Source: Scilla litardierei (lineage: Eukaryota > Streptophyta > Magnoliopsida > Asparagales > Asparagaceae). From it: a stretch of DNA of 64,000 nt. Below, in pieces: positions 1,893 to 63,082 of this stretch. Both the position numbers and the translations under genes were made by a program. Position 1 is the stretch's first letter. Every line of letters begins with the position of its first letter. Under the pieces are notes generated by a model. That model made no database searches. It had not been told where the DNA came from and saw nothing but the letters and a program-made list of their open reading frames with translations. The stretch spans positions 163,893 through 227,892 of the forward strand of contig JAULAV010003358.1 in assembly GCA_030789695.1 (NCBI GenBank), read 5' to 3'.

Positions 1893-2194
1893 ATCGATTG
1901 GGATTTACAAGAGATTAGATCCCAATTGGTAAGAAGGCCTAGATATTCGATTTAGATTAATAATTGAAATTCTCTAGATTTGGTTTGCAAGAGATTGGAT
2001 CAAAGCTATAATTTTTAATTATAAATCTATCCTAATATTCGTTTGCAAGAGATTGGACGAATACGAACTATCATAGCCTAGATCGTAACTCGAGTTTGCA
2101 CGAGAGTGGGCTCGAGATGCGATTGGACGATGATGTCGATCTTCACGACAGCGGCTTAGGGTAGGGTTTGCACGAGAGTGGGCTCTATCCTAGG
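1893..2194 (+). ncRNA. Hairpin array with conserved tip (decayed copy)
   Basis: Five stem-loops share a loop close to ttgcaagagattgg. Stems include tattcgt/acgaata around 2036-2064 and ctcgag/ctcgag around 2089-2117. Two loops read ttgcacgagagtgg, where the tip pairs CAA/TTG have become CAC/GTG around an unchanged GAGA. These are paired changes relative to the intact LTR copies. The segment would be transcribed as part of the LTR R/U5 region. Confidence 0.75.
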
Positions 2195-10800: not shown

Positions 10801-10852
10801 GCTTCAGATTTCCAACCGTTGGGTTATGACCTAACACGATTTTCCCCCTTAG

Positions 10853-10860
10853 TATAAATA
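10853..10860 (+). promoter_or_regulatory. TATA box of SIRE-like 5' LTR
   Basis: tataaata follows the palindrome array directly. The U3/R boundary should lie about 30 bases downstream, near the ctggggttcttcttcc run. The same box is in the 3' LTR. Confidence 0.75.
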
Positions 10861-20702: not shown

Positions 20703-21912
20703 TGTTGAGTATTGGACTCCCCGTATTTGGTTTTGGATGATGAGCAAACATAAATAAATTATGAACTAACAATTTGTGAGCGCAGTTATGGAGATCGTCG
20801 CCAAATTCACGAGAACACTAAAAGCGACATCTCAAGACTTCTCAAAGCACGTACTCAATGCCTAAAGCTTCGTTGAAGCTTTTGGACCATTTTGGAAGTC
20901 ATGAAGATTTGATCGAAGCTCTCGAAGCCCGTTCCTTAAGGTTTTATTTATAGTCTTTTAACTTCGATCTATAGAATGTTAAGCCTTAAGTAATTCTTAC
21001 ATTTCTATCTTCATATCACTCCCATCTTAGAGCTAGGATCTTAGTAGAAGTCCATACAATCTTTCCCGAAGCATCGTGCTTCGATGCGGGACTTCTAGTG
21101 CATGTTAGTTGGTTCAAGAAGAAGAACCAGCCGACTAGATGGTGATCTAGTCGGTCGGCAAAGCTTCTTGGACCGACTAGTTTGTTCCCTAAACTTCTTG
21201 CTCCTTACTGTTCATACTTAGTCGGTCCATGTTGACTCACCGACCGACTAGTTGTTGAACCAGTCGGTCAGTGATGCTTCTTAGACCGACTAGTTGAACC
21301 TTCCCTGAACTTGCCTAGTTACTGTTTATACTTAGTCGGTCTATGTTGACTCACCGACCGACTAGTTAGTGAACTAGTCGGTCAGTGATGCTTCTTAGAC
21401 CGACTAGTTGAACAGTCTCTGTTCATGCCAAGTTACTGTTTATCCTTAGTCGGTCTAAGAACGTTTAGCGACCGACTAGTTGATGAACTAGTCGGTCAAC
21501 ATTTGTTCTTGAACCGACTAACTCAATTTGTATTCAGACTATTTGTTTTTGACTCTTAGTCGGTCTAAGTTCACTGACCGATCGACTAGTTGTGAAACTA
21601 GTCGGTCAGACAGTCTTCTTGGACCGACTATATTTATAGGTCTGAAATTCAATCTGTTCACTGTTCATCACTTAGTCGGTTCATGTTGTTTCACCGACCG
21701 ACTAGTTGATGAACTAGTCGGTCAGTGGTTGTTCTTTGACCGACTAGCTGCTTCAGATTTCCAACCGTTGGGTTATGACCTAACACGATTTTCCCCCTTA
21801 GTATAAATACTAAGCTGGGGTTCTTCTTCCCCAAGAAGAGCTATATTTCAGAGATTCATTGAGATTGAAAGAGTTAGAGATTCTCACTCATTTCCAAAGC
21901 TCTCTCCCTCAC
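20703..21912 (+). repeat. 3' LTR of SIRE-like element, first part
   Basis: It matches 9756-10962 of the 5' LTR, including the whole palindrome array and the TATA box. It is interrupted after ctccctcac by element A. The missing remainder continues at 33854. Confidence 0.95.
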
Positions 21913-23742
21913 TGATCGCAACCCCGGATACACGTCCCGAGGCGACGGTTGTAGTTTTACCGCAAGCGCACGGTATAGCGGCGAGCGGGTATCGAACACA
22001 GGGAGGACGAATGACCGTGCTTGCTCCTGATCCACCTAGCTATTTATGAACAGAGAGAGATAATTGCCTTGGGCGATCCTGTCACAATCGTCAGACAAAT
22101 TTGCGAAATATCAAATCAAATAAAGAACGTCTAGGGAAAGGGGAATCCCCACTACTCACCGTATTTCATAAGTGTGGTTCGCCGGTATCGAAATTGCTAG
22201 AATGAGAATTTGGATGAACTAGTTGCAACTAAATGTGGAACCAAGCTCACGCTCTCGCGCTGTTGCCGGTCTATAGCTATCCTAGGGTCGGGTCCAATCT
22301 CTTGCAAACCCTAGCCTAGGAAAGCTAGCATTAGGATCAACATCATCGTCCAATTGCGCACCGAGCCCAATCTCTTGCACACTCGGTCCACAATCTAAAT
22401 TAGGATAGTTCCTACCCGTCCAATCTCTTGCAAACGGGTATCGGCACGGGATCGCAACCGGAGGTCCTAGTATCGGTCCAATCTCTTGCAAACCGATACT
22501 TCGGAAATCCGACTCCAACCCAATTCGGATTTCTAGGGCTTCCTATCAAATTGGGACCCAATCTCTTGCAAATCCCAATTGATATAAATACCTAGCTATC
22601 CGTAGTAATTCGATCCCAATCTAATCCCTAATTATTGATTCTAGCACAATTTCTACCAATTTATCACAAATACGAAATTGGGCTTGTAGGGTTCATCCCC
22701 ACGCCCCAAGACGTGGAGACTACTCACAAATCATATCAATAGCACAAAAATAATCAATGAAATAGGCAATGGAATTCATCACAACAATGATATAAACAAT
22801 AAAAATAGAGTTTTTGGGGAAGAACAATGCAAACCAATGTAGATCTTCAATTAATCCAACAAAAATCCAAGTTTTTCTCCTCTCCAATCACAATTAATAA
22901 AGCTAAAAAAGTAAACTCCAAAAAGCTGCAAAAAATCTGAGAGATGGCTCTCTAAACTAGGGTAAAAACAGAGCTTAAATAGCCCCAAAAATCGTCTAAA
23001 AATCCTGACCAAAATGCCCCTGCACAGCCTGTTTTCCGCAAATTTCGCTACAGGCAGCGCATCGCACTCGGCCGAGTGACAAAAGTCGCTCGGCCGAGTG
23101 AAAACCCTGTCATTTTTCCAGTAAGTCGGGGGCTTCAGGGGGTCTTCAGCTTGGGGGCGGCTCGGCCGAGTGAGTTGTCGTCACTCGGCCGATGGCTTCA
23201 AGGCACTCGGGCGGACGTAATAATCCACTCGGCCGAGTGGGTCTTCTGAAGCTCAGATGGCCGAAAAACAGTAACTTCGATATTCTGGAGGGGCTTCGTC
23301 TGGGCGCCACTCGGGCGGACGTGGTATCGTCACTCGGCCGATGTGGTCTCCGTCGCTCGGCCGAGTACACATGGAAATCGTGTCTGAACGGGTCGGCCGA
23401 GCAGTGTCTCGCTGGTCGGCCGAGTGGCTCCTCCACTCGGCTGAGTGGGACACAAAAAATGCCCAAACTGATCGTTTTGGCCTCCTCGTCGCTCCGGCGA
23501 CGTCCATTCTTCTTCCGCTCCTCTTCAACAGCAAAATACCCCTCGGGGAGGTCGTCGGTGGCCGTCTATCGTGAGCGCATCTCATGATCACTCCAAATCG
23601 CGCCAAATCACCTGAAATGCGACAAAAATAACAAAGCGTGAAAAGCATCGCAATATCGTCGATATATCGTGAAAAACATGATTTGGGCGATCTAAATGGC
23701 ATGCAAACATGCGGAAAAAAGGTGTAAAATAAGGAGTGATCA
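21913..23742 (-). repeat. 3' LTR of element A (1830 bp)
   Basis: On the minus strand it runs from TGATCACTCC to GGTTGCGATCA. It contains the palindromes (about 23065-23460) and the hairpin array. It is nearly identical to the 5' LTR at 32028-33848, differing by small indels such as cacaatcgtcag versus ctcgtcag near 22083. Confidence 0.95.
22277..22582 (-). ncRNA. Hairpin array in 3' LTR of A
   Basis: Five copies of ccaatctcttgcaa (the loop on the opposite strand) are each bordered by complementary arms, for example agtatcggt/accgatact and tacccgt/acgggta. It is the same structure as in the B LTRs. Confidence 0.8.
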
Positions 23743-25856: not shown

Positions 25857-27947
25857 CTAGTGTGTGGGAGGGTGTGTGGGAACCTGCTGGGAGGGCGGGG
25901 GTACGCGCGGAAGACGCTCTAAGATCTGCGTCAGGCAGTAGTGGATGTGAGGGATCAGGTCAAAGCGTCCAGCCGTCGCGGAGACGGTGGCGGACAGGGT
26001 CCTAAGGTCTCCTCTAAGACCACTCACCGCCAACTCAAGAGCACGTATGCTCTGCAGTACAGTGTCGGGCGGGGGTGGTGCAGAGGGACGCACCTGTCGG
26101 GGCTGCGCAGGGCGAGGCTGGCGTACGCGAGTGGAGTATGTAACGGGGTCAGCAGGGAAGGGGACGAAAGGTGCCGCGCCTGGAAATGTGGGCCGGGCCT
26201 CAGTGTGAGGTCGGGACGGGCGGTGGGAAGTGGAGGCAGCGGCAGCGAAAGAAGAGTACAAAAGCGGCTGCGAGGCGGCAAGAGAGGTCAGTGGCCCAGA
26301 AGTGTGGACAGACGCCACGACGCTCTCGGAGAATACGGCAGCTGTGGAGACAGAGGAATCTCCCGCTGGGGCGGAAGTGTGTGGACCAAAAGGCGCAATC
26401 CCAGCGGAGATCATGCTAGCCATGGTCTCCACGACCGCGGCGAACGAGGGCTCTCCACTCTCAACAAAGGTCTGCGGGCGCTGGGGGAGAGCGGAGCAAA
26501 GAGGCTCCACGGACAGAGGGCCGGAGGTGGCAGCGGGAGTGGTGGGGACAGCCTCGGAAGTGGTGACAGTGGTGGAAGTGGGCTCAGCAAAAGTACTCTC
26601 GACACAGGCAGAGGTGGGGACAGAAGTGTCAAGAGCAGTGGAAATGTCAGGAACAGGCTGAGAGGCCACAGGGTCGACGGGGTGGGCAGCAGGCTCGGCA
26701 GGGTGTGCAGCAGGGTCTGCGGGAGCAGCCTGGGCAGCGTGGGCAGCGTGGGCCTGCTCGGCCTCCTCGGCCTCGAGCACGTACGCAGCGGGGATGAGGA
26801 CATCCGCCGCCGGAATCCAGTCAACGTGGGCTGGTGCAATCAGAGTCCGAGCAGGGCTCGGGAGAATCATGTAATCGGCCCCATAGGGGCCGTGCAACCA
26901 GACCCAGTGACGCTCACCATGCGGACGAAGCATCTTCATCCGGGCCATAACGTCTATCGACAAAGAGGTGGGGCCCGATACTCGCCGCAGGTCGTCGGGG
27001 AAGTCCTCGCCGGTCATAAGAGCAAGCAGGGTAATCAGGCCGCCGCAGCATATCGGTGAGCGGGCGCCCACCGATACAATGATGCGGTCTAAGTACCATG
27101 CCGCGATATCGATCACGACGGCGGGGACAAGCTCATCTCCATCCCTAGATAGAGCTCTGGGACGGGTCATCGCGTAGAGCATGTAAAGCTCTGGCGTAGA
27201 CATCGTGCCCGGCTCATATCTGGCCAAAAATGTCGTCGCCATAAGGCGCTGAGCAATGCAAAGGCAGGGATGTACGATGGCTGAGGCCTTGGCCCTACTA
27301 GGGTCAAAGGCGGCGTGGAGACCCGTGATACGTGCCCAGAAGGCACCGGCATCGAAAGAGGGTGGAGGGATATGTGTGGGGCCGTAACCGCGATCGGCAC
27401 CGGGGACGGCGGGCCAAGAGAAAAATGCTCTCATCATATCGAGAGTGACCTGGCACTCTCGATCCATGAACCGGAATGAGCATCCCTCATCGGTCCGGGC
27501 GATCGAACTCAAAACCTCAAGTGTCGGGCGGGTAAAAGTATCCGCCGACACCTGAAGGAAGTCGCGCCAACCCACGTTGTCGTACAACGTGAGTATCCCC
27601 TCAAGTACCCCCAGGCGTCCTAGGTCAGCGAGGTGTGCGAACCTGGAGGGTACGATCGAGCGCTGAGAGATACGCTCGAAGACGGCGCGGTGTGCGTCGT
27701 CTCGGAACGTAATCCCGAGCGGCCCGACCAGTGGGGCCGGTGGTGGTGGCTGTGGATCGGCAGGGAGAGGCTGTGCGGGCTGTGGGTGCGCTGCAGGCTG
27801 TGCGGGGTGTGCGGGGCCTGCAGGCTGTGCGGGGTGTGCGGGGGAAGGAGGAGGAGACTCTTCCGCCTCGTGGGCGGGGCCGGCGTCATCAGACCTCTTC
27901 CGCTTAGCGGAAGGTCTCCTCGTCCGAGGCCGTGTCCGGGGCGGCAT
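25857..27947 (-). CDS. Third ORF (Athila ORF/env-position) of element A
   Basis: I start at the ATG of MPPRTRPR (codon at 27945-27947), because that start is shared with B1 and B2; an in-frame ATG also exists at 28016. The protein is about 696 residues. It has a basic N-terminus with KRKR near residue 16, a Pro/Ala/His-rich linker, and a globular domain of ~270 residues starting near GITFRDDAHRAVF that resembles the Athila ORF1-type protein. A long Ala/Pro/Thr/Ser-rich region follows, then a C-terminal helical segment (LQSIRALELAVSGLRGDLRTL), probably a coiled coil. There is no signal peptide or clear membrane anchor. The frame is intact. Its function is unknown; nuclear localisation is inference. 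Confidence 0.8.
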   Translation of the reverse strand: MPPRTRPRTRRPSAKRKRSDDAGPAHEAEESPPPSPAHPAQPAGPAHPAQPAAHPQPAQPLPADPQPPPPAPLVGPLGITFRDDAHRAVFERISQRSIVPSRFAHLADLGRLGVLEGILTLYDNVGWRDFLQVSADTFTRPTLEVLSSIARTDEGCSFRFMDRECQVTLDMMRAFFSWPAVPGADRGYGPTHIPPPSFDAGAFWARITGLHAAFDPSRAKASAIVHPCLCIAQRLMATTFLARYEPGTMSTPELYMLYAMTRPRALSRDGDELVPAVVIDIAAWYLDRIIVSVGARSPICCGGLITLLALMTGEDFPDDLRRVSGPTSLSIDVMARMKMLRPHGERHWVWLHGPYGADYMILPSPARTLIAPAHVDWIPAADVLIPAAYVLEAEEAEQAHAAHAAQAAPADPAAHPAEPAAHPVDPVASQPVPDISTALDTSVPTSACVESTFAEPTSTTVTTSEAVPTTPAATSGPLSVEPLCSALPQRPQTFVESGEPSFAAVVETMASMISAGIAPFGPHTSAPAGDSSVSTAAVFSESVVASVHTSGPLTSLAASQPLLYSSFAAAASTSHRPSRPHTEARPTFPGAAPFVPFPADPVTYSTRVRQPRPAQPRQVRPSAPPPPDTVLQSIRALELAVSGLRGDLRTLSATVSATAGRFDLIPHIHYCLTQILERLPRVPPPSQQVPTHPPTH

Positions 27948-28492
27948 ATCGGCCCAGAGCGCGCCGAAAAGTGAAAAAGTGTAGCGTGTGCAAAAAGAGT
28001 GGAAAGAGTGTACCAAAACACGCCGCGAGTGCTAAGCGGTGGAAGCGTGCGAAGTCCGCGCCTCCACGAAATCCAAAACAGCCCGTAGAAGCTCCCCTGA
28101 GCTCCCCTAAGCTCCAAAAAGCAACCTGCGCATGGAAAAGCGATATCAGCGAGTAATAATCAAAATGTATGGAGCAATAGGGGTATAACAGATAGATATG
28201 GGAATTGATTCGGGTTAGGGGTTCGATTAATACACGGATCCTCGAAAACTACGCAAAAAGAGAAGAAAATGGGCAAATCGAGCTATACCGGAGGCGATCG
28301 GAGACGAGGTCGCCGGCGGCGACTCGGGCGGGGCGCGGCGTCGGTCGGCCGGCGGTGGCTGGCCGAGCGGCGGCGCGCGCGGGCGTGGTCGGGCGAGTGA
28401 GGGTTGGGCGAAGGGGGGAATCGGGCGAGGGTAGGCGAAGGGGCGCGGGCGGATTTGGGAATTTAGATTTCGAAATCCGCGCCCCTTCGTCA

Positions 28493-29061: not shown

Positions 29062-31869
29062 CTAAACGAAAATAAAGAAAGAAAAAAGATAAAAAATAAA
29101 GCAAAAACCGTCGGGTTGCCTCCCGACAAGCGCTCGTTTTAGGTCGTGGCGGCTTGGATTTGGATGTGGCGGCGTAGCGGTCTCCCTCGGAGGTCTCTTG
29201 TCCCGAATGGTGTTGGGGGGAGGCTCCCCCAAGCTAGCATTTGCCCCGGTCAACGGCTTAACCGGCGATGCCGATTTCCGTGCCGGCGGAGCTTTCTTTG
29301 GAGACTTTAATTTTGAGAGCTTGCAGAGCTCTCGAATCCTCGCGACATCAGCGTCGCCTTCATCTTCATCAACGGAGAAGTCGGGGGAATCGTCTTCAAT
29401 CTTTTCATCTTGGCCTAAATCCGGGCCTTCATCAAGTTCTTCATCAAAGAGAGCACCAATTGAATGAGGAATCGCCTCCTCTATCACCTCATCAAGGAGG
29501 TCCATGTAATCGAGCTCCTCGTGGTGAGGCATGTGTTTCATTGCCTTAGGAATGTGGAGCTCCACCTCGATGTTGCCGACGTTTAAAGTAAGTGTACCTT
29601 CGCGCACGTCGACGATGACTCCGGCGGTGGCGAGGAAGGGGCGTCCAAGTATCAATGAGGTGTCTCCCTCCTCCTTAATGTCCATGATGACGAAGTCACA
29701 TGGTAAGCATATCCCACCCGGGACTTGAAGTGGGATGTCCTCGGCAATCCCCACCGGCCTTGTTATCCGGCCATCGGCTAATTGAATGCGCATGTCGGTG
29801 GGCTTCAACTTTGTCCCGGTGTTAAGCTTTAAGAACATGGAGAGGGGCATGAGACTCACGCTAGCCCCAAGATCGACCAACGCCTTTTGAAGAGGCACGC
29901 CGCCCAAGGTGCAAGGAATCCGAAAACTCCCCGGATCCCTAAATTTTGCCGGCTCCTTCTCTCTCTTGGTGAACCAAGAGCCCTCCTCGGCTAGCATTAT
30001 CTTCTCCTTCCTTTTCCTCCCCGAAATCAAGTCCTTCAAGAATTTAGCATACGTTGGGATCTCGACGATGGCGTCGAGGAAGGGAATATTGAGGCTAACT
30101 CCCCTTAGATACTCGAGGAATTTCGCTAGCCTTTTTTCCATTTTCGCTTTCGCTAGTCTTTGGGGGAATGGGACCGGTGGCATGAAGCGCCTCTCCTCAA
30201 TTAATTGCTCCGCCCTAGATTTCTCCTTGTCTCGTGGCTCCTTCTCCTTTTCAACCTCGACTATCGGCTCAACCGGCTCCAAACTTTCCTCCACGGCCTC
30301 CTCAATAGGAATCATGGCGGGGGTGGTATCCTTCCCGCCTCTAGTAGTGACGGCAACTACGGCGTTGATGTGGCCCGTGTTGCCCCGTGGGTTTTGCTCC
30401 GGTTGCGCCGGCAATCTTTGAGTGTTCCGGTTGAGCAACGCTAATTGCTCCGATATTTGAGCCACTACCGTATTGAGAGATTCTTGCCCCGCCTTCAAAG
30501 TAGCATTCACCTTATTTTGCTCGACCATGAACGCCTCCACTCTAGATTCGAAGTCGGTTCGTTGAGGAGCTTGTGGAGGGTTTTGATTTTGATTCCTCCA
30601 CCCTTGGTTGTATCCGGGAGGCCTATACGGTGGGACTTGTTGCTTCGGTGGAAAGTTTTGTTGCGGAGGCCCCCTCGGTGGATAGTTTTGTTGTTGGGGT
30701 GGTGGTGGTCGAGCTTGTTGAGGCGGTGGTTGTGGCGGGTTCAAGGCTCCTTCATTGTTGGCGTAGGAGAATCCCGGATGATTTCTTGCGGCCGGATTGG
30801 ACCAATACCCTTGGTTCCCCGCAACATATTGTATTTGCTCCAAGGATCCTTCTCCTTGCTCTCCTCCCGAGTACATGACTTGAGATTGGTCTTGCCAATC
30901 ACACATTTGGTTGGTCGGTGCGGAGGTGGATGGGCTTCCTTGGGGTTCCGTGATATATTTCTCCAATCTCTCCACCACCTTGTGGAGAGAATCAAATTTG
31001 CTCGTGAGCTCTGCTACGGCCTTCGCCTCGTAGATGCTAGTTGGCTTTAAGGAGGATGTGGAGTGTCCTCGCTCATCGCCCCATTGTTGGTTATTTGAGG
31101 CCATCTCCTCAATTAGGGCCGTAGCTTCCTCGGGAGTCTTTGACAAGATTGCACCATTTGCCGCGGCATCAATAATTTGTTTGGTCCCCGGTTGGAGACC
31201 GTTGTAGAAGCTATGAACTAGCTCCCAGTCCTCTATACTGTGGTGCGGGCATTGGTGCTGTAAACCCTTAAATCGCTCCCAAGCTTCATAGAGCGTCTCC
31301 TGTGGTCCTTGCTTGAAGGACATGAGAGCGCTCCGGATCTTCACCGTCTTGGATGGCGGATAGAATTTGTCAATAAATGCGCTCGCCAACTCGTCCCAAG
31401 TAGTGAAGACTCCGTCAGCTTGCGTCCTCAACCAATAGAGTGCCTTGTCCTTGAGTGTGAAGGGGAAGAGGCGCAGTCTGATAGCGTCGTCGGAGACCCC
31501 TGGCATCTGAAATGTGGCGCACTTTGACAAGAATAGTTGGATGTGGTAGTGGGGGTTCTCATGTGCGTTCCCATGAAACGGGTCTTGTTGCATCAACACC
31601 ACCAATCCAGTCTTTAGCTCGAAGTTCTTGTCGGCCGCCAACCCCGGCATGGCAATGGACGAGGTGGTAGAAGAAGTCTTAGGCCGAAGCCTATCTCGAA
31701 TAGAGATTATCCTTACCATCCTTGCCGTCAATTCTTCAGGAGTTTCCCGGTTGGTCATATACCTCCCTTCCGGATCTTGTCTCTTTTCCGCTCTAAGTCT
31801 CCGCGCGGTACGTTCGATCTCGGGATCAAATAATAAGCCTTCTGGGTCCGCCGTAGATCTCGTGTACAT
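29062..31869 (-). CDS. gag-pro: Gag-protease polyprotein of element A, pol domains deleted
   Basis: Intact 935-codon frame. The Gag domain (retrotransposon gag type, about residues 85-240) includes FPFTLKDKALYWL and WDELASAFIDKFYP. A Pro/Gln-rich linker follows; no CCHC knuckle is seen, as is usual in Athila-like Gags. The protease lies at ~640-760 with active site VDLGASVSLMP and ILGRPFLAT; Asp-Leu-Gly replaces Asp-Ser/Thr-Gly, common in this lineage. Directly after it comes an acidic tail starting [19 protein letters not shown] that in B1 follows integrase. RT, RNase H and integrase have therefore been removed cleanly without breaking the frame. The product could build particles and cleave proteins but not reverse transcribe or integrate. 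Confidence 0.9.
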   Translation of the reverse strand: MYTRSTADPEGLLFDPEIERTARRLRAEKRQDPEGRYMTNRETPEELTARMVRIISIRDRLRPKTSSTTSSIAMPGLAADKNFELKTGLVVLMQQDPFHGNAHENPHYHIQLFLSKCATFQMPGVSDDAIRLRLFPFTLKDKALYWLRTQADGVFTTWDELASAFIDKFYPPSKTVKIRSALMSFKQGPQETLYEAWERFKGLQHQCPHHSIEDWELVHSFYNGLQPGTKQIIDAAANGAILSKTPEEATALIEEMASNNQQWGDERGHSTSSLKPTSIYEAKAVAELTSKFDSLHKVVERLEKYITEPQGSPSTSAPTNQMCDWQDQSQVMYSGGEQGEGSLEQIQYVAGNQGYWSNPAARNHPGFSYANNEGALNPPQPPPQQARPPPPQQQNYPPRGPPQQNFPPKQQVPPYRPPGYNQGWRNQNQNPPQAPQRTDFESRVEAFMVEQNKVNATLKAGQESLNTVVAQISEQLALLNRNTQRLPAQPEQNPRGNTGHINAVVAVTTRGGKDTTPAMIPIEEAVEESLEPVEPIVEVEKEKEPRDKEKSRAEQLIEERRFMPPVPFPQRLAKAKMEKRLAKFLEYLRGVSLNIPFLDAIVEIPTYAKFLKDLISGRKRKEKIMLAEEGSWFTKREKEPAKFRDPGSFRIPCTLGGVPLQKALVDLGASVSLMPLSMFLKLNTGTKLKPTDMRIQLADGRITRPVGIAEDIPLQVPGGICLPCDFVIMDIKEEGDTSLILGRPFLATAGVIVDVREGTLTLNVGNIEVELHIPKAMKHMPHHEELDYMDLLDEVIEEAIPHSIGALFDEELDEGPDLGQDEKIEDDSPDFSVDEDEGDADVARIRELCKLSKLKSPKKAPPARKSASPVKPLTGANASLGEPPPNTIRDKRPPRETATPPHPNPSRHDLKRALVGRQPDGFCFIFYLFSFFIFV

Positions 31870-32027: not shown

Positions 32028-33848
32028 TGATCGCAACCCCAGATACACGTCCCGAGGCGACGGTTGTAGTTTTACCGCAAGCGCACGGTATAGCGGCGAG
32101 CGGGTATCGAACACAGGGAGGACGAATGACCGTGCTTGCTCCTGATCCACCTAGCTATTTATGAACAGAGAGAGATAATTGCCTTGGGCGATCCTCGTCA
32201 GACAAATTTGTGAAATATCAAATCAAATAAAGAACGTCTAGGGAAAGGGGAATCCCCACTACTCACCGTATTTCATAAGTGTGGTTCGCCGGTATCGAAA
32301 TTGCTAGAATGAGAATTTGGATGAACTAGTTGCAACTAAATGTGGAACCAAGCTCACGCTCTCGCGCTGTTGCCGGTCTATAGCTATCCTAGGGTCGGGT
32401 CCAATCTCTTGCAAACCCTAGCCTAGGAAAGCTAGCATTAGGATCAACATCATCGTCCAATTGCGCACCGAGCCCAATCTCTTGCACACTCGGTCCACAA
32501 TCTAAATTAGGATAGTTCCTACCCGTCCAATCTCATACAAACGGGTATCGGCACGGGATCGCAACCGGAGGTCCTAGTATCGGTCCAATCTCTTGCAAAC
32601 CGATACTTCGGAAATCCGACTCCAACCCAATTCGGATTTCTAGGGCTTCCTATCAAATTGGGACCCAATCTCTTGCAAATCCCAATTGATATAAATACCT
32701 AGCTATCCGTAGTAATTCGATCCCAATCTAATCCCTAATTATTGATTCTAGCAAAATTTCTACCAATTTATCACAAATACGAAATTGGGCTTGTAGGGTT
32801 CATCCCCACGCCCCAAGACGTGGAGACTACTCACAAATCATAGCAATAGCACAAAAATAATCAATGAAATAGGCAATGGAATTCATCACAACAATGATAT
32901 AAACAATAAAAATAGAGTTTTTGGGGAAGAACAATGCAAACCAATGTAGATCTTCAATTAATCCAACAAAAATCCAAGTTTTTCTCCTCTCCAATCACAA
33001 TTAATAAAGCTAAAAAAGTAAACTCCAAAAAGCTGCAAAAAATCTGAGAGATGGCTCTCTAAACTAGGGTAAAAACAGAGCTTAAATAGCCCCAAAAATC
33101 GTCTAAAAATCCTGACCAAAATGCCCCTGCACAGCCTGTTTTCCGCAAATTTCGCTACAGGCAGCGCATCGCACTCGGCCGAGTGACAAAAGTCGCTCGG
33201 CCGAGTGAAAACCCTGTCATTTTTCCAGTAAGTCGGGGGCTTCAGGGGTCTTCAGCTCGGGGGCGGCTCGGCCGAGTGAGTTGTCGTCACTCGGCCGATG
33301 GCTTCAAGGCACTCGGGCGGACGTAATAATCCACTCGGCCGAGTGGGTCTTCTGAAGTTCAGATGGCCGAAAAACAGTAACTTCGATATTCTGGAGGGGC
33401 TTCGTCTGGGCGCCACTCGGGCGGACGTGGTATCGTCACTCGGCCGATGTGGTCTCCGTCGCTCGGCCGAGTACACATGGAAATCGTGTCTGAACGGGTC
33501 GGCCGAGCAGTGTCTCGCTGGTCGGCCGAGTGGCTCCTCCACTCGGCCGAGTGGGACACAAAAAATGCCCAAACTGATCGTTTTGGCCTCCTCGTCGCTC
33601 CGGCGACGTCCATTCTTCTTCCGCTCCTCTTCAACAGCAAAATACCCCTCGGGGAGGTCGTCGGTGGCCGTCTATCGTGAGCGCATCTCATGATCACTCC
33701 AAATCGCGCCAAATCACCTGAAATGCGACAAAAATAACAAAGCGTGAAAAGCATCGCAATATCGTCAATATATCGTGAAAAACATGATTTGGGCGATCTA
33801 AATGGCATACAAACATGCGGAAAAAAGGTGTAAAATAAGGAGTGATCA
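32028..33848 (-). repeat. 5' LTR of element A (1821 bp)
   Basis: In element orientation it starts TGATCACT at 33848 and ends GCGATCA at 32028. Palindromes lie at about 33565-33170, a TATA-like tatttaag at 33088-33081 and the hairpin array at 32692-32385. Confidence 0.95.
32385..32692 (-). ncRNA. Hairpin array in 5' LTR of A
   Basis: Five tandem stem-loops as in the other LTRs. In the third, the loop is altered (ccaatctcatacaa on the plus strand) while its stem tacccgt/acgggta is unchanged. Confidence 0.8.
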
Positions 33849-34841: not shown

Positions 34842-35129
34842 TGTAACGACTGCTTTTCATGAATCTGGATTTAATATAATATAATATATGTTTTGGTGGA
34901 TTTTCTCCTCTTGTGTGGTTTTCATCCCCGTAGTTTCATTTTCGATCGATTCGTCGTATTTTCTCGCTTCTTCCTTAGGATTGTCGATTTCGAAGTATGT
35001 CACTCGTGACGGGCTTCATAACGGTCGTATCTAACTATTAGATCAAGCCTAGGAGTCTTAGGAATCGATCCCGGGGCCCCGCGCTCCGTATCGGTACTTT
35101 TGGTGCTCATTAGCCGGTGTAAGAAGGGC

Positions 35130-35578
35130 CACCGACCGACTAGATGACGATCCAGTCGGTCGGCAATCCTTCTTGGACCGACTAGTTTGCTTTCTAAATT
35201 TCTCAGGAGTTACTGTTTATCGTTAGTCGGTCTAAGAACGTTGGTTGACCGACTAGGTTGCAAACTAGTCGGTCAGCAATGCTTCTTGAACCGACTAACT
35301 CATCATATTATTTTTGTATCAGTTACTGTTTACTCTTAGTCGGTCTAAGAACGTTCATCGACCGACTAGATCCTAAACTAGTCGGTCAGTACTTGTTCAT
35401 GGACCGACTAACTCTAGAATCCTATTTTCGTTCAGGAGTTACTGTTTGCACTTAGTCGGTCTGCGTTGATCGACCGACCGACTAGTTGCCAAACTAGTCG
35501 GTCAGTGGTTGCTCTTTGACCGACTAACTAGTGTTAAAACCCTAATTTCTGGGCAGCCGCCAGCCCAACATATTTAAA
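35130..35578 (+). promoter_or_regulatory. SIRE-type palindrome array and TATA box in LTR of C
   Basis: Inverted and direct accgactag/ctagtcggt sites fill 35130-35530, followed about 45 bp later by tatttaaa. Non-palindromic spacers also match the SIRE-like LTR: cttcttggaccgactagttt, agttactgtttatc, tagtcggtctaagaacgtt and cttgaaccgactaactca. It is therefore the same array, not a chance motif. Confidence 0.85.
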
Positions 35579-38082: not shown

Positions 38083-38375
38083 TGATCACTCCATATTTTA
38101 CACCTTTTTTCCGTGTATTTGCATGCCATTTAAATCGCCCAAATCATGTTTTTCACGATATATCGACGATATTGCGATGCTTTTCACGATTTGTTGTTTT
38201 TGTCGCATTTCAGGTGATTTGGCGCGATTTGGAGTGATCTCGAGACGCGCTTACTTTAGACGGCCACCGACGACCTCCCCGAGGGATATTTTGCTGTTGG
38301 AGAGGAGCGGAAGAAGAATGGACGTCGCAGGAGCGACGAGGAGGCCAAAACAATCAGATTGGGCATCTTTTGTGT

Positions 38376-38849
38376 CCCACTCGGCCGAGTGGAGGAGCCA
38401 CTCGGCCGACCAGCGAGACACTGCTCGGCCGACCCATTCAGACACGATTTCCATGTGTACTCGGCCGAGCGACGGAGACCACATCGGCCGAGTGACGATA
38501 CCACGTCCGCCCGAGTGGCGCCCAGACGAAGCCCCTCCAAAATATCGAAGTTTCTGTTTTTCGGCCACCTGAGCTTCAGAAGACCCACTCGGCCGAGTGG
38601 CAAACCACGTCCGCCCGAGTGCAGTGAAGCCATCGGCCGAGTGACGACAACTCACTCGGCCGAGCCGCCTCCGAACTGAAGACCCTTGAAGCCCCCGACT
38701 TACTGGAAAATGACAGGGTTTTCACTCGGTCGAGCGACTTTTGTCACTCGGCCGAGTGCGATGCGCTGCCTGTAGCGAAATTTGCGGAAAACAGGCTGTG
38801 CAGGGGCGTTTTGGTCAGGATTTTTTGACGATTTTTGGGGCTATTTAAG
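38376..38849 (+). promoter_or_regulatory. U3 promoter of B: palindrome array plus TATA-like box
   Basis: About twelve full or partial actcggccgagt sites lie at 38376-38760, then tatttaag at 38842-38849. The same block recurs in LTR 2 (TATA at 50301) and LTR 3 (61530). Confidence 0.75.
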
Positions 38850-39235
38850 CCCTGTTTTTACCCTAGTTTAGAGAGCCATCTCTCAGATTTTTTGCAGCTT
38901 TTTGAGACTACTTTTTAGCTTTATTATTTGTGATTGGAGAAGAGGAAAAACTTGGATTTTTGTTGGATTAATTGAAGAACTACATTGGTTTGCATCTCTC
39001 TTCCCCAAAAACTCTATTTTTATTGTTTATATCATTGTTGTGATGAATTCCATTGCCTATTTCATTGATTATTTTTGTGCTATTGCTATGATTTGTGAGT
39101 AGTCTCCACGTCTTGGGGCGTGGGGATGAACCCTACAAGCCCAATTTCGTATTTGTGATAAATTGGTAGAAATTGTGCTAGAATCAATAATTAGAGATTA
39201 GATTGGGATCGAATTACTACGGATAGCTAGGTATT

Positions 39236-39540
39236 CATATCAATTGGGATTTGCAAGAGATTGGATCCCAATTTGATAGGAAGCCCTAGAAATCCGAATT
39301 GGGTTGGAGTCGGACTTTCGAAGTATCGGTTTGCAAGAGATTGGACAGATACTAGGATCTCCGGTTGCAATTCCGTGCCGATACCCGTTTGCAAGAGATT
39401 GGACGGGTAGGAACTATCCTAATTTAGATTGTGGACCGAGTTTGCAAGAGATTGGGCTCGGTGCGCAATTGGACGATGATGTTGATCCTAATGCTAGCTT
39501 TCCTAGGCTAGGGTTTGCAAGAGATTGGACCCGACCCTAG
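39236..39540 (+). ncRNA. Covarying hairpin array in LTR 1
   Basis: Five stem-loops share the loop ttgcaagagattgg. Stems: aattgggat/atcccaatt (39242-39273), agtatcggt/acagatact (39322-39353, one mismatch in this LTR only), tacccgt/acgggta (39382-39409), accgagt/gctcggt (39435-39462, one G-U) and gggt/accc (39511-39532, with an alternative longer pairing ctagggt/accctag). Inside the loop CAA and TTG can pair around a GAGA tetraloop of GNRA type. Being downstream of the TATA-like box, it would be in the genomic RNA. Confidence 0.85.
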
Positions 39541-39907
39541 GATAGCTATAGACCGGCAACAGCGCGAGAGCGTGAGCTTGGTTCCACATTTAGTTGCAAC
39601 TAGTTCATCCAAATTCTCATTCTAGCAATTTTGATACCGACGAACCACATCTATGAAATACGGTGAGTAGCGGGGATTCCCCATTCCCTAGACGTTCTTT
39701 ATTTGATTTGATATTTCGCACATTTGTCTGACGATTGTGACAGGATCGCCCAAGGCAATTCTCTCTATTCTTAAATAGCCAGGTTGATTAGAAGCAAGCA
39801 CGGTCATTCGTCCTCCCTGTGTTCGATACCCGCTCGCCGCTATACCGTGCGCTTGCGGTAAAACTACAACCGTTCTTTGGATGTACGTCCCGGAGCGATC
39901 AAGTTTT

Positions 39908-39925
39908 TGGTGCCGTTGCCGGGGA
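39908..39925 (+). promoter_or_regulatory. Primer binding site, tRNA-Asp type (B1)
   Basis: tggtgccgttgccgggga matches the tRNA-Asp 3' end with one mismatch (t for c at 39911). The site in B2 is perfect. Confidence 0.88.
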
Positions 39926-40044
39926 ACCGGTTATTTCTTCTTTCTTTCTTCTTTCTTCATCCTCCTCCATATCTTATTTTAACTTTATTCGTAGCCCTAT
40001 TTGCATATTCTCCCCGTATTTTGCATAAGATCTTAACAGGGAGA

Positions 40045-40983
40045 ATGGAGGATGCACTGCCAACAATGGAACTCAGTCGGGAAGACTATGACTCCTTCAC
40101 AGACCTCCTTAAGGAGCTTATCGACGAGGTCCACGCTACCGGAGCATTTGCTATCGATATCAAGGACCCCGACGAGCAACTGTTCGCTAGTTTTGTGATG
40201 GACCAAATCTCCCCGGAGGGGACTGTCGGAGGGGATGTCAGAGTTGATGTGGTCGACGACAAATTGTATTTCGAAGACAATAGAGCAAGTTTCGAAGAAC
40301 ACTATACTTTCGAAGAATCCTTCGAGCAAACCGACATTCAGGGAGTTACACTCTATGACGCTCACTCTTGCTTTTATGAATCGTCTGATGTGTTTCTTGA
40401 TTCCAGGTACGAGCCGGAGCAGAGTGAAAGTTTTTGCGATGCTAGCACCGAATCGGAGAGCACCTATTTCGATGCCTCATCCTCACTAAGTAGCGAGTCT
40501 GACTCGTCACAAGAAAGCGCGCCACCTGAACATGAGCTAAACCCGGATGGCAAGGAAGGGACCGAACTCATGCAAGCTGATGAAGTGGAAGGAGCAGCGC
40601 CTCTTCAGGTGGAACTTAAACAATTACCTCCGAATCTAAGGTACGCCTTCTTGGGTAGCAAATTAACTTTCCCGGTGATAGTAAACTCCCATCTCACGCC
40701 AGACCAACTTGAAAAACTCCTAGATGTTCTTAGGAGCCACAAAGATGTCCTGGGCTACACTATCTCCGATCTAAAAGGGATAAGCCCTAGGCTTTGCACG
40801 CATAGGATCCATTTGGAGGATACCGATGCCACCTCCATTGAGCCTCAAAGGCGGCTAAACCCGAACATGAAGGAGGTGGTTAAAAAAGAAATCCTAAAAC
40901 TGCTAGAAGCCGGCATTATTTACCCTATCTCAGACAGTAGGTGGGTTAGCCCCGTTCACGTTGTTCCCAAGAAGGGGGGATGA
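40045..40983 (+). CDS. N-terminal Pol frame of B1, gag-pro deleted
   Basis: This frame of 312 codons starts at the first ATG with [15 protein letters not shown], 144 bp after the LTR. The first ~190 residues are acidic and Ser/Glu-rich and match no domain I know. Residues ~200-312 are the conserved segment before RT in Athila-like elements ([63 protein letters not shown]). It ends at a TGA that overlaps the ATG of the next frame as ATGA, inside RT. No Gag or protease sequence is present between LTR and RT, unlike element A. The frame therefore gives at most a truncated protein unless a -1 shift joins it to the next frame. Confidence 0.8.
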
Positions 40984-43925
40984 CGGTTATAAAAAATGAA
41001 AAAGGTGAACCCATATCCACACGTACCGTCACGGGATGGCGAATGTGCATTGACTATAGGAAACTCAATAAAGCTACCCGAAAGGATCATTACCCATTGC
41101 CCTTCATTGATCAAATGCTTGAACGCCTCGCAAAACATAAGTACTTTTGCTATCTAGATGGGTATTCGGGATTCTTCCAAATCCCTTTGCACGAAGATGA
41201 CCAAGAAAAGACAACTTTCACTTGCCCCTATGGTACCTATGCTTACCGTAGGATGCCGTTTGGTCTTTGCAATGCCCCCGCCACTTTTCAGAGGTGCATG
41301 ACATCCATACTTTCCGATTACATTGAAAATATTATGGAAGTTTTTATGGATGATTTCTCGGTCTACGGAAGTGAGTTTGACTCTTGCTTGGAAAATCTTA
41401 CTAAAGTCCTGAAAAGATGTCAACAAAACAATCTCACTCTCAATTGGGAGAAGTGTCACTTCATGGTCACGGAAGGTATAGTTCTCGGACATCTTGTTTC
41501 CTCGAGAGGAATTGAGGTAGATAAAGCGAAAATTGAGGTAATCGAAAAACTTCCTCCTCCTATTAATGTCAAGGGCATTAGAGGCTTCCTTGGTCATGCG
41601 GGGTTTTACCGCCGCTTCATAAAGGATTTCGCCTCGATTGCCCGACCCCTTACTTCTTTGCTCGCTAAAGATATTCCTTTTGATTTTTCAGGTGAATGCT
41701 TGCAAGCCTTCAACGCCTTGAAAGAAGCACTAGTCTCGGCGCCCATCATACAACCGCCGGATTGGAGCCTTCCTTTTGAGTTAATGTGTGACGCTAGCGA
41801 CCAAGCCATTGGAGCGGTGTTGGGACAAAGAAAAGATAAGAAGCTTCATGCGATATACTATGCGAGCAAGACATTGGATGACGCTCAGAAAAACTACACA
41901 ACTACCGAGAAAGAGCTTCTAGCGGTTGTCTATTCCATAGAGAAGTTTCGCTCCTACCTCCTCGGTTCCAAGGTGATTGTCCACACCGACCATGCGGCAT
42001 TGAAGTATCTTTTAAACAAGAAGGAGGCAAAACCTCGGTTGATTAGGTGGATACTCTTGTTGCAAGAATTCGACCTAGAGATAAGAGATAAGAAGGGTAC
42101 GGACAATGTCGTGGCGGATCATTTATCTAGGCTCATTCGTGACAAGGATGATGAGAGCTTACCCATTGACGACACATTTGTTGATGAAAGGCTATATGCG
42201 GTAAGGACCGGTGAAGTACCTTGGTACGCGGACTTCGTCAACTACTTGGCTTGCGGAATCAAACCGCACGGGATGTCCACGCAACAAAAGAGGAGATTTA
42301 TGCATGAGGTCCGTAGCTATTTTTGGGAAGATCCTTACCTTTTCAGGATATGCAAAGATAGTGTCATCCGTAGGTGTGTTTCTAAAGAGGAGGCGACATC
42401 GATTATTTTACATTGCCATGGCCTACCATGCGGAGGACATCATGCCGCCTCTAAAACCACCGCTAAGATCTTGCAGAGCGGGTTCTTCTGGCCAACAATG
42501 TTTAAAGACACCCACAACTTTGTAAAAGGGTGCGATAGATGCCAACGGACCGGGAACATCTCCAAGCGCAATGAAATGCCAATGAGGCCCATCCAAGAAA
42601 TTGAGCTTTTTGATTGTTGGGGAGTAGACTTCATGGGACCATTTCCATCGAGCAATGGCAACAAATACATCCTATTGGCCGTCGACTACGTCTCCAAATG
42701 GGTGGAGGCAATTGCCACTCCTACTAATGATGCAAGGGTCGTCTCCAAGTTCTTCAAGCAAAATATCTTCCCGCGCTTTGGAGTGCCGCGTACCTTGATA
42801 AGCGACGGGGGAAGCCACTTCATAGAGAACAAGTTTGAAGCCATGCTAAAGAAGTACGGGGTAAATCATAGAGTTGGCATGGCTTATCACCCCCAGACAA
42901 GCGGCCAAGTGGAAGTCTCAAATAGAGAGATCAAGCAAATTCTCGAGAAAACAGTGGATCGGTCTAGAAAGGATTGGTCAATGAAGTTAAACGATGCTCT
43001 ATGGGCTTATCGCACGGCCTTTCGCACCCCCATCGGCACCACACCGTTCCGTCTAGTTTATGGGAAGGCTTGCCACTTGTCGGTAGAGTTGGAGCACCGC
43101 ACATATTGGGCCATCAAGACCTTTAACTACGACTACAAGAGTGCGGCGGTGAGGCGACTCTTGGACATCAACGAGCTTGATGAAATAAGGAGAGACGCCT
43201 ATGAGAGCTCGAGAATTTACAAGGAAAGGACCAAGATTTTCCACGATGCCCGCATAACCGTCACGGACTTCAAAGTAGGAGACAAAGTCTTGCTCTATAA
43301 TTCCCGGCTCCGACTATTTCCCGGTAAGTTGAGGTCACGCTGGTCCGGACCCTTCACCATCAAACATATACAACCGGGAGGAGCTTTCGAGTTGGAGAGC
43401 AAGGACGGTTCCACGTTCAAAGTAAATGGTCAAAGGCTCAAGCACTATTCCGAAGGAATCCCGACGGGCGAAACCAATAGAATATATATGCTTAAAGAAC
43501 GGTCGGAAGATCTCATGGACCTCCTCGATGAGGTGATAGAGGAGGCGATTCCTCACTCAATCGGCGCTCTTTTTGATGAAGAATTTGAAGAAGGCCCGGA
43601 TTTAGGCCAAGATGAAAAGAGTGAAGACGATTCCCCCGACTTCTCCGCTGATGAAGATGAAGGCGACGCTGATGTCGCAAGGATTCGAGAGCTCTGCAAG
43701 CTCTCGAAATTAAAGTCTCCAAAGAAAGCTCCGCCGGTACGGAAATCGGCATCGCCGGTTAAGCCGTTGACCGGGGCAAATGCTAGCTTGGGGGAGCCTC
43801 CCCCCAACACTATTCGAGACAAGAGACCTCCGAGGGAGAACGCTACGCCGCCACGTCCAAATCCAAGCGCGCTCCCCGGGAAGTTTGACGGGTGCATCTC
43901 ATATGCACCAAACATCCCGCATTGA
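40980..43925 (+). CDS. pol: RT-RNase H-integrase of B1
   Basis: 981 codons, open. RT motifs: [25 protein letters not shown], and the catalytic FMDD box (residues ~121-124). RNase H runs ~265-385 with [33 protein letters not shown] and [10 protein letters not shown]. Integrase: HHCC zinc domain (~480-530; [11 protein letters not shown]...CDRCQ), then Asp in WGVDFMGPF (~549), Asp in LISDGGSHF and Glu in [10 protein letters not shown]. The C-terminal acidic tail from [14 protein letters not shown] is shared with element A. The order RT-RNase H-integrase marks Ty3/gypsy; there is no chromodomain. The first RT residues are in the preceding frame, one base out of phase, so translation from this ATG alone lacks the N-terminal RT fingers. 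Confidence 0.88.
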
Positions 43926-49541: not shown

Positions 49542-51360
49542 TGATCACTCCATATTTTACACCTTTTTTCCGTGTATTTGCATGCCATTTAAATCGCCCA
49601 AATCATGTTTTTCACGATATATCGACGATATTGCGATGCTTTTCACGATTTGTTGTTTTTGTCGCATTTCAGGTGATTTGGCGCGATTTGGAGTGATCTC
49701 GAGACGCGCTTACTTTAGACGGCCACCGACGACCTCCCCGAGGGATATTTTGCTGTTGGAGAGGAGCGGAAGAAGAATGGACGTCGCAGGAGCGACGAGG
49801 AGGCCAAAACAATCAGATTGGGCATCTTTTGTGTCCCACTCGGCCGAGTGGAGGAGCCACTCGGCCGACCAGCGAGACACTGCTCGGCCGACCCGTTCAG
49901 ACACGTTTTCCATGTGTACTCGGCCGAGCGACGGAGACCACATCGGTCGAGTGACGATACCACGTCCGCCCGAGTGGCGCCCAGACGAAGCCCCTCCAAA
50001 ATATCGAAGTTTCTGTTTTTCGGCCACCTGAGCTTCAGAAGACCCACTCGGCCGAGTGGCAAACCACGTCCGCCCGAGTGCAGTGAAGCCATCGGCCGAG
50101 CGACGACAACTCACTCGGCCGAGCCGCCTCCGAACTGAAGACCCTTGAAGCCCCTGACTTACTGGAAAATGACAGGGTTTTCACTCGGCCGAGCGACTTT
50201 TGTCACTCGGCCGAGTGTGATGCGCTGCCTGTAGCGAAATTTGCGGAAAACAGGCTGTACAGGGGCGTTTTGGTCAGGATTTTTTGACGATTTTTGGGGC
50301 TATTTAAGCCCTGTTTTTACCCTAGTTTAGAGAGCCATCTCTCAGATTTTTTGCAGCTTTTTGAGACTACTTTTTAGCTTTATTATTTGTGATTGGAGAA
50401 GAGGAAAAACTTGGATTTTTGTTGGATTAATTGAAGAACTACATTGGTTTGCATCTCTCTTCCCCAAAAACTCTATTTTTATTGTTTATATCATTGTTGT
50501 GATGAATTCCATTGCCTATTTCATTGATTATTTTTGTGCTATTGCTATGATTTGTGAGTAGTCTCCACGTCTTGGGGCGTGGGGATGAACCCTACAAGCC
50601 CAATTTCGTATTTGTGATAAATTGGTAGAAATTGTGCTAGAATCAATAATTAGAGATTAGATTGGGATCGAATTACTACGGATAGCTAGGTATTCATATC
50701 AATTGGGATTTGCAAGAGATTGGTTCCCAATTTGATAGGAAGCCCTAGAAATCCGAATTGGGTTGGAGTCGGACTTTCGAAGTATCGGTTTGCAAGAGAT
50801 TGGACCGATACTAGGATCTCCGGTTGCAATTCCGTGCCGATACCCGTTTGCAAGAGATTGGACGGGTAGGAACTATCCTAATTTAGATTGTGGACCGAGT
50901 TTGCAAGAGATTGGGCTCGGTGCGCAATTGGACGATGATGTTGATCCTAATGCTAGCTTTCCTAGGCTAGGGTTTGCAAGAGATTGGACCCGACCCTAGG
51001 ATAGCTATAGACCGGCAACAGCGCGAGAGCGTGAGCTTGGTTCCACATTTAGTTGCAACTAGTTCATCCAAATTCTCATTCTAGCAATTTTGATACCGAC
51101 GAACCACATCTATGAAATACGGTGAGTAGCGGGGATTCCCCATTCCCTAGACGTTCTTTATTTGATTTGATATTTCGCACATTTGTCTGACGATTGTGAC
51201 AGGATCACCCAAGGCAATTCTCTCTATTCTTAAATAGCCAGGTTGATTAGAAGCAAGCACGGTCATTCGTCCTCCCTGTGTTCGATACCCGCTCGCCGCT
51301 ATACCGTGCGCTTGCGGTAAAACTACAACCGTTCTTTGGGTGTACGTCCCGGAGCGATCA
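49542..51360 (+). repeat. LTR 2 (middle) of the B tandem
   Basis: 1819 bp, TGATCACT to GCGATCA. It serves as 3' LTR of B1 and 5' LTR of B2. No target duplication flanks it. Hairpin 2 is perfect here (agtatcggt/accgatact). Confidence 0.97.
50695..50999 (+). ncRNA. Covarying hairpin array in LTR 2
   Basis: Same five stem-loops as in LTR 1, with all nine base pairs of hairpin 2 intact. In hairpin 1 the loop/stem border has one change (ttggttccc). Confidence 0.85.
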
Positions 51361-62594: not shown

Positions 62595-63082
62595 CTCCTC
62601 TGACCGGGAGTCATATCAGAAGGTTCTGGTAGCAGCCAAGAGGCAGGAGCTGCTCGTGAACCAGAGGAAGGGGTCTATTGTTGGTGCTGGGAAGAGGCCT
62701 TTGGAACAGGCGAGAGCTGTGGTTAGGTCTGGATTCAGGCCGAACCCGCCTGTTCAGTTTAAGAGGCCAGGAGGGCCTGTTCGGAGGACTTGCCATTTCT
62801 GTGGCAAGGAGGGCCATATCAAGGAATCGTGTAGGAAGTTCTTGGGGCAATGTATTATCTGTGGGGATCCCGCCCATGCTATCCGGGAGTGCCCGAGGTT
62901 GAAGCAACCTTGGAGGACACCTATTGCTGCCCCGCCGTTGCAGCAGAGAGCCCCGGTGCCTGCTGGTCGTGGGGTGCCCCTCATTCCGCAGAAGCAGGCT
63001 TTTCAGCAGGCCGCTCCGCCGAGGAGGCAGGCATTTCTGATGACTGAGGAGGAGGTTTTGGCCATGGATGAGGTTATTGCAG
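62595..63082 (+). CDS. gag: Gag of element C, 3' part with two zinc knuckles
   Basis: It continues the frame broken at 38082. It holds a basic linker and two CCHC zinc knuckles in a row (CHFCGKEGHIKESC and CIICGDPAHAIREC, both C-x2-C-x4-H-x4-C), then a Pro/Gln-rich end. Two knuckles are more than most gypsy Gags have. If unspliced, the frame runs three more codons to a TGA at 63091-63093. If the candidate intron is removed, the frame continues into protease. Without the B insertion, Gag would be about 379 residues. Confidence 0.88.

Follow-up and report, generated by a model that had tools for sequence, protein, structure and literature searches.

The gammaretroviral packaging signal is a GACG double hairpin, and many retroviral packaging signals lie downstream of the primer binding site. 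The CTE export elements of simple retroviruses carry paired repeat motifs within a single long hairpin close to the 3′ end, an identical recognition motif being shown more than once by different stems. According to the excerpted text of one report, MMTV Gag binds a purine loop of the leader (PMC8096270). In plants, the excerpted text on the Ty1/Copia elements BARE1 and BARE2 describes packaging of the Gag-less BARE2 and conservation of its packaging signals (PMC3735527). Athila-type elements form large parts of some plant genomes, for instance 36% of that of Matthiola incana in the excerpt of PMC12392961. The literature that we found is silent on how Athila RNA is singled out for copying.

Here, we analysed a 64,000-nucleotide stretch of DNA (the window) from the genome of Scilla litardierei (3.68 Gb, 7266 contigs), which contains Athila-type LTR elements. 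Their LTRs carry an array of five hairpins (Table 1). As in the retroviral packaging signals, exposed purine loops are borne on stems in what is predicted to be a retroelement leader (compare the MMTV purine loop in the excerpt of PMC8096270). However, the retroviral signals come in one or two copies, whereas the array has five, combines GAGA with a UUG/G internal loop and sits in the LTR, upstream of the primer binding site, its binding by Gag being putative. The array also differs from CTEs in that it consists of five separate hairpins within an LTR. Like BARE1 and BARE2, its host is a plant LTR retroelement, BARE2 keeping cis-acting packaging and dimerisation signals in Gag-less copies; however, the BARE elements are Copia and not Athila, and tandem identical loops are not mentioned in the excerpt of that report (PMC3735527). 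Athila elements (PF03078) are the hosts of the array, as indicated by a PF03078 match in element B and by an Athila-type primer site, the array being found in only one LTR lineage.

The original prediction knew of no described family with this design, and the searches found none either. No Rfam family matched the array at gathering level, the sole such match in the window (snoR71) lying elsewhere. With E values up to 10, the region 38840-40050 gave four weak matches, and the two that fall on the array are to CRISPR-DR36 (E 1.3 and 7.9) and below the family score. Viral contigs and GTDB genome contigs yielded nothing when scanned for the exact tandem motif, and none of the 16 pattern matches from an RT-frame scan of viral contigs was confirmed. 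No such array was found in the titles and abstract starts of the literature on Athila LTR or RNA structure, Ty3 packaging and packaging or dimerisation of plant LTR elements, and a main-text search, covering mostly papers other than subscription ones, gave 0 papers with the 14-mer or its complement. As far as searched, the array is new as a family of selected RNA structure.

Table 1. Positions in the window of the LTR elements, the hairpin arrays and the associated features.
Feature	Position	Strand	Remarks
LTR A	782-2546	+	old
Five-hairpin array, LTR A	1893..2194	+	
Element B	between LTRs 21913-23742 (B1) and 32028-33848 (B2)	-	
Five-hairpin array, LTR B1	22277..22582	-	
Five-hairpin array, LTR B2	32385..32692	-	
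Element C	LTRs 38083-39901, 49542-51360, 60771-62589	+	tandem, LTR-internal-LTR-internal-LTR
LTR C1	38083..39901	+	Athila-type, TGATCACT...CGATCA; LTR copies 99.3-99.4% identical
TATA-like box TATTTAA	38842..38848	+	start expected ~30 nt downstream
Five-hairpin array, LTR C1	39236..39540	+	
Hairpin 1 (C1)	39242..39273	+	9-nt arms; loop 39251-39264
Outer stem, hairpin 2	39296-39301 with 39368-39373; 39306-39309 with 39359-39362	+	covarying pair types, 99 arrays
Hairpin 2 (C1)	39322..39353	+	9-nt arms; loop 39331-39344; one C1 mismatch, absent from C2, C3 and B
Hairpin 3 (C1)	39382..39409	+	7-nt arms; loop 39389-39402; C-G / T-A switch at two neighbouring pairs
Hairpin 4 (C1)	39427..39470	+	loop 39442-39455; arms of 15 nt, mismatched at one position; inner pair either A-U or C-G, depending on the copy
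Hairpin 5 (C1)	39502..39541	+	loop 39515-39528; arms of 13 nt, mismatched at two positions in C; inner pair either A-U or C-G, depending on the copy
Primer binding site	39907..39925	+	just after LTR C1
Five-hairpin array, LTR C2	50695..50999	+	
Five-hairpin array, LTR C3	61924..62228	+	

In all six LTRs, the motif TTGCAAGAGATTGG recurs five times between complementary arms, as had been reported at first sight of the sequence: 30 matches with at most two mismatches were found, as compared to a mean of 0.56 in shuffles. The word "invariant" used for the motif was slightly too strong, 23 of the 30 copies being exact and seven not (three in A, one in B1, two in B2, one in C3). Successive loops start ~80, 58, 53 and 72-73 nt apart. 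Each loop has its own pair of 7-15-nt arms, and the arms of the five hairpins are mutually unrelated in sequence. Inside the 14-nt loop motif, CAA can pair with TTG around GAGA; the resulting 3-bp helix carries the GAGA tetraloop and leaves UUG/G as an asymmetric internal loop. As proposed, GAGA has the sequence of a GNRA tetraloop, and it is closed by a pair that covaries in hairpins 4 and 5.

The outer stem around hairpin 2 is an addition to the original prediction, and it also covaries. Among the 99 arrays described below, its pairs switch between A-T (51) and T-A (39), between A-T (48) and G-C (45), and between G-C (48) and A-T (43), one pair of its second helix being unpaired in at least 57 of the 99. 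For the six arrays of the window, RNAalifold gave 111 predicted pairs, both sides having changed in 16, and placed the outer stem in a partly different register. The LTR of a copia element at 9755-11606 was considered as a further case of the same design; it holds palindromic tandem repeats but no such loops. Tandem units of ~111-114 bp rich in ACCGACTAG were also seen at 10178-10798 in this copia LTR, at 21205-21747 in its copy and at 35110-35529 in a third place.

The six LTRs had initially been treated as separate cases. Their identities instead group them into three lineages, A, B1 with B2 (99.4%) and C1 with C2 and C3 (99.3-99.4%), B and C being ~95% identical and A ~66% identical to the rest. 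LTR A is probably a 3′ LTR, because the stretch 18-532 upstream of it resembles 59498-60026, slightly upstream of the last C LTR (75.7%). Element B belongs to the Athila lineage of Ty3/Gypsy according to a match to PF03078 (ATHILA) at 25860-28016 on the minus strand (E 8.6e-11). In element C, matches to PF00078, PF17917, PF17919, PF17921 and PF00665 at 40980-43922 follow the Gypsy order of RT, RNase H and integrase. The Gag-protease frame of B is open over 935 aa (29065-31869, minus strand); no RT match was obtained in two frames of B, and DNA self-comparison gave none to the RT stretch of C. The first long frame of C partly matches proteins named RT-domain-containing (region 40045-43922, plus strand), and tblastn with the Gag of B gave no match in C. 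The frame of B matches C again only from about 43485 onward. These matches give B and C the appearance of complementary deletion derivatives, with Gag-protease but no RT match in the frames examined of B, and RT to integrase but no Gag match in C. An Rfam snoR71 match (42.7 bits, threshold 40) lies at 31235-31340, on the strand opposite to the Gag frame of B. Just past LTR C3, two tandem CCHC zinc-knuckle motifs in one frame (62791-62892) perhaps belong to another element into which C inserted.

The pairing was first scored within the window. For this, 53 pair positions (stem lengths 9, 9, 7, 15 and 13) were laid out on C and scored in A; the stem lengths were read from C but chosen after A and B had been inspected, so that the layout was not blind. 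Pairing was found in A at 51 of the 53 positions, as compared to a mean of 41.4 when the observed substitutions were permuted among positions of the same base, and none of 100,000 permutations reached 51. Among the 50 positions that pair in C, 36 are unchanged in A, eight have changed on both sides and still pair, five have changed on one side and one is broken. All five one-sided changes lead to G-U and none to A-C. Of the three mismatches of C, two pair in A. The paired changes pointed out in the original prediction were recovered, namely tacccgt/acgggta to tattcgt/acgaata and accgag/ctcggt to ctcgag/ctcgag; CAA/TTG to CAC/GTG around GAGA was seen in two of the five hairpins of A.

The array is abundant in the genome. 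The exact motif occurs 167,774 times, and pairs of copies at array spacing number 46,314 on one strand and 45,816 on the opposite strand, as compared to 0 for the control. A marker of 21 nt, which lies beside the array on its downstream side without being part of it, has 43,572 copies with at most two mismatches (control, 3). Among the matches listed, 70 loci were picked by exact marker matches, and 66 of them hold the five-loop array in normal spacing. The other four have four loops each (L068 and L103), one loop in view (L080) or six loops (L106). The array of L106 (about 357-691) owes its sixth loop to a duplicated 58-bp unit between two loops, which suggests template switching at repeated loops. 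Arrays for tree-based tests were admitted if they had five recognisable loops with at most three mismatches each, which leaves out L068, L080, L103 and L106, and identical arrays were counted once. A first set of 91 arrays (6 from the window) was later enlarged by 8. The resulting 99 distinct arrays combine the window with motif-picked, marker-picked and primer-site loci; 93 come from the genome outside the window, the sampled loci all being from one contig of one genome and falling into two main clades.

Changes on terminal branches are taken to be mostly neutral decay after insertion, whereas those on internal branches have passed through replicating elements. With 99 arrays, stem-pair changes from a paired state kept pairing in 71 of 86 cases on internal branches as compared to 99 of 217 on terminal branches (Fisher 2e-9). 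Double changes that kept the pair occurred nine times on internal branches, the mean under partner-shuffle being 0.78 and the maximum 4. A tree built from the spacers only gave 77/91 internal and 104/226 terminal changes kept. Without the motif-picked genome loci (65 arrays), the figures were 51/61 and 88/179, and 52/60 and 96/195 with the spacer tree. In each of these four runs, the observed internal fraction was reached by none of 500 partner-shuffles. With the set of 91 arrays, 70/81 internal and 91/201 terminal changes were kept, and none of 2000 shuffles reached the observed value. One pair of hairpin 1 was dropped for gaps, 67 pairs being used in the 91- and 99-array runs.

An all-pairs covariation scan (G statistic with APC; tree-based null keeping changes per site and branch weights) returned none of 51,360 column pairs at E below 0.05, and its three best pairs (E 0.31-0.39) are not stem pairs. 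We read this as a lack of power, with two main clades and the deep changes on few branches. Thus, the covariation expected in independent LTRs was found as an aggregate excess of kept pairs within one genome, whereas no single column pair reached significance. The central claim of the original prediction, a selected RNA structure, is upheld in aggregate by the 71/86 versus 99/217 kept changes among 99 arrays, 93 of them from outside the window, and the array is almost certainly such a structure.

These data also bear on the idea that no selection acts on the structure, the array having arisen by chance through tandem duplication or being a substrate of small-RNA cutting. With 7-15 bp, the stems are short substrates for plant Dicer. 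The 58-bp unit duplicated in L106 shows that loops can recombine, and the excerpted text on Arabidopsis Athila6, which makes siRNAs, lists a fold-back among the proposed triggers (PMC3276544). An accident would, however, leave unexplained why no two of the five hairpins have related arms, and it is disfavoured by the constraint on internal branches and by the 51/53 pairs kept in A; we give it hardly any credence.

The distribution of changes over the array was counted with 91 arrays. Spacers changed 225 times on internal and 230 times on terminal branches (149 sites), and arms 116 and 187 times (105 sites). The loops changed only 12 and 55 times, of which three and 14 concern UUG/G (20 sites) and nine and 30 the inner helix (30 sites). 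GAGA changed 0 times on internal and 11 times on terminal branches (20 sites). The requirement for five recognisable loops lowers the loop counts on both kinds of branches. Hairpins 4 and 5 account for eight of the 12 internal loop changes, at their paired positions 6 and 11; both positions changed three times in hairpin 5 and once in hairpin 4. In hairpin 4, the types at positions 6/11 are C-G 58, A-T 30 and T-G 3; in hairpin 5, they are A-T 69, C-G 20, T-G 1 and A-G 1 (n=91 each). Almost all of the inner-helix covariation is at this pair, which adjoins GAGA, in hairpins 4 and 5. Four combinations of the inner pair were counted genome-wide in exact loops, with 167,774 A..T, 32,129 C..G, 247 C..T and 89 T..A. 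C..G, which is compensated, outnumbers the uncompensated C..T 130-fold, and T..A, though able to pair, is hardly used by the array lineage (89 genome copies). The loop constraint fits recognition rather than mere stability, because a GNRA loop kept for stability only could be replaced by another GNRA sequence, whereas GAGA did not change on any internal branch.

The behaviour of position 6 also bears on RNA-RNA kissing, in which the loops would dimerise or link genomes through the palindrome UUGCAA. In HIV, SL1 starts dimerisation through a kissing loop, as stated in the excerpt of PMC3902901, and the self-complementary TTGCAA is present in most loops of hairpins 1, 2, 3 and 5. However, C at position 6 breaks the palindrome in 58/91 loops of hairpin 4 and 20/91 of hairpin 5, and the partner base has changed in step with position 6, as expected for pairing inside the hairpin. 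Kissing is considered very unlikely as the role of the array.

One-sided changes were used to ask on which strand the structure is read. With 99 arrays, new G-U and A-C pairs stand at 37:6 on internal branches (binomial 1.6e-6) as compared to 70:55 on terminal branches (0.21). Because of this difference, the G-U excess on internal branches points to the sense RNA strand rather than to a DNA palindrome. The G-U share is raised under partner-shuffle too, with a mean of 0.74 as compared to 0.86 observed (one of 2000 shuffles reaches it, 91 arrays), so that part of the bias resides in the columns themselves. The sense strand folds better in 99 of 99 arrays, at a mean of -115.7 kcal/mol versus -90.9 for the antisense strand, and the predicted pairing probability of the arms is 0.77 sense versus 0.63 antisense; that of the inner 3-bp helix is 0.45 on the sense strand, lower than the 0.56 on the antisense strand (99 arrays). 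Folding z-scores are -3.6 (C1) and -4.9 (A) for the sense strand and -3.2 (C1) and -1.8 (A) for the antisense strand. The two strands are thus not equivalent, as they would be for a DNA palindrome or cruciform, although the z-scores of C1 are similar on both.

U3 palindromes of the CTCGGCCGAG type, at 38370-38770 and in the other U3 regions, fold about equally on both strands. It is possible that these palindrome arrays have a promoter or methylation role. Their presence in the same LTRs, together with the part of the G-U bias that survives partner-shuffling, would be in keeping with arms that are DNA-level inverted repeats (binding sites or cruciforms) and have no RNA role. Given the internal G-U excess, the better folding of every sense strand and a constraint that bears on the loop and not on the arms alone, such a DNA-level explanation is extremely improbable.

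The position of the array in the LTR was then considered. In the 41 LTRs with enough flank, TATA-like words are nearly confined to the interval from -450 to -350 relative to hairpin 1, whose two 50-nt bins contain 28 and 11 of them, as compared to 2 or fewer in every other bin. This upstream box suggests that the array belongs to the 5′ leader, and transcription of C1 would start near 38875, 361 nt before the array. The original prediction had placed the array in the R/U5 leader; the TATA-like box at a near-fixed distance of ~400 nt upstream and the primer site downstream, which we take to be of the tRNA-Asp type, are consistent with a predicted position in the 5′ leader. No consistent poly(A) word was found in the sampled LTR loci, so that R and U5 are not separable. 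Counted from the expected start, the C1 leader would measure 1170 nt up to the ATG (40045) that opens the first long frame. It contains eight ATGs, all opening short frames, and three of them are inside the array, between hairpins 4 and 5. An intron-like GT..AG stretch was also noted at 39663-39743, between the array and the primer site, with donor and acceptor words in 23 of 62 sampled loci.

With its eight ATGs, three of them within the array, the ~1.2-kb leader might call for a control of translation by the array, either through ribosome shunting past the upstream AUGs or through a cap-independent route. Ribosome shunting is known with one strong barrier stem and not with five identical loops, and a role of this kind does not account for a loop constraint that exceeds the arm constraint; we regard translational control as quite unlikely. 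Alternatively, a host factor could bind the array for nuclear export, stability or silencing evasion of unspliced RNA. Repeated identical motifs on different stems and the sense-strand bias would serve such a factor equally, as the paired motifs of simple-retrovirus export elements illustrate, and an unspliced RNA could need help where the intron-like stretch follows the array. The intron is putative, its pair of signals is missing in 39 of the 62 sampled copies, and we know of no binder of the array. This explanation is held to be unlikely.

The reading that we prefer is multivalent docking. The five independent hairpins would be different scaffolds, each presenting the same recognition unit, made of the UUG/G asymmetric internal loop, the 3-bp helix and the GAGA (GNRA) tetraloop. 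Docking of a sequence-specific binder is suggested because the stems vary and still pair while the loops are frozen in sequence and mostly in number, and five spaced copies would give avidity. The candidate binder is the element's own Gag, in which case the array would mark the genomic RNA for packaging, like retroviral psi hairpins. We infer that the array is part of the transcript, where it would be bound by a protein, namely Gag. By analogy, Gag packaging would be the simplest known process using such leader hairpins. According to the excerpt of PMC2577118, Athila/Tat Gag groups with gammaretroviral Gag and usually has a CCHC zinc knuckle. No such knuckle was found by exact or relaxed pattern in the 935-aa Gag-protease frame of B, which counts against packaging, as does the location of the array upstream of the primer site. 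Because B (Gag-protease) and C (RT-integrase) both keep the array, it could be a cis signal used in trans.

A role in packaging of genomic RNA is accordingly advanced as a tentative proposal, somewhat short of an even bet. The whole statement, that is a selected sense-strand leader RNA of one Athila lineage that acts by multivalent docking in packaging by Gag, seems to us about evenly poised. More tentatively still, the array may be a previously undescribed multivalent RNA landing pad of plant elements akin to endogenous retroviruses, in which one recognition loop has been copied onto five rewired, covarying stems and which serves as the packaging code of an Athila lineage with tens of thousands of copies, from which derivatives such as B and C could be mobilised in trans. 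An array with one repeated loop offers a concrete target for probing, for Gag-binding assays and for tests of particle RNA. The family lends itself as well to the study of RNA evolution, its tens of thousands of copies recording selection on internal branches and near-neutral decay on terminal ones.

The array had been attributed to every Athila-like LTR. A primer-site 19-mer, one base off the sequence at 39907-39925, has 42,928 matches in the genome with at most one mismatch. Among the first 100 matches listed, 20 neighbours without a listed array or marker upstream were picked by hand. The array was present in eight of them and absent in 12, which come from four other LTR groups; a scan of these 12 (L124, L125, L126, L128-L132, L134, L135, L137 and L140) detected no repeated loop of this kind. 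Because 12 of the 20 picked stretches upstream of an Athila-type primer site lack it, the attribution was too broad: the array is a feature of one Athila lineage and not of all Athila/Tat-type elements. Some of the other LTR groups showed single words or hairpins. L125, whose family lacks the array, has one loop-like word, GTGCATGAGAATGG, ~453 nt upstream of the primer site; the related TTGCATGAGAATGG has 89 genome copies, several in pairs ~7.3 kb apart. L126 and L131, of another LTR group sharing the primer site, have a single hairpin, GAATTGG/TTAATTC, ~359 nt upstream of that site, and its loop differs between copies, being GAGA or GGGA, which are both GNRA sequences.
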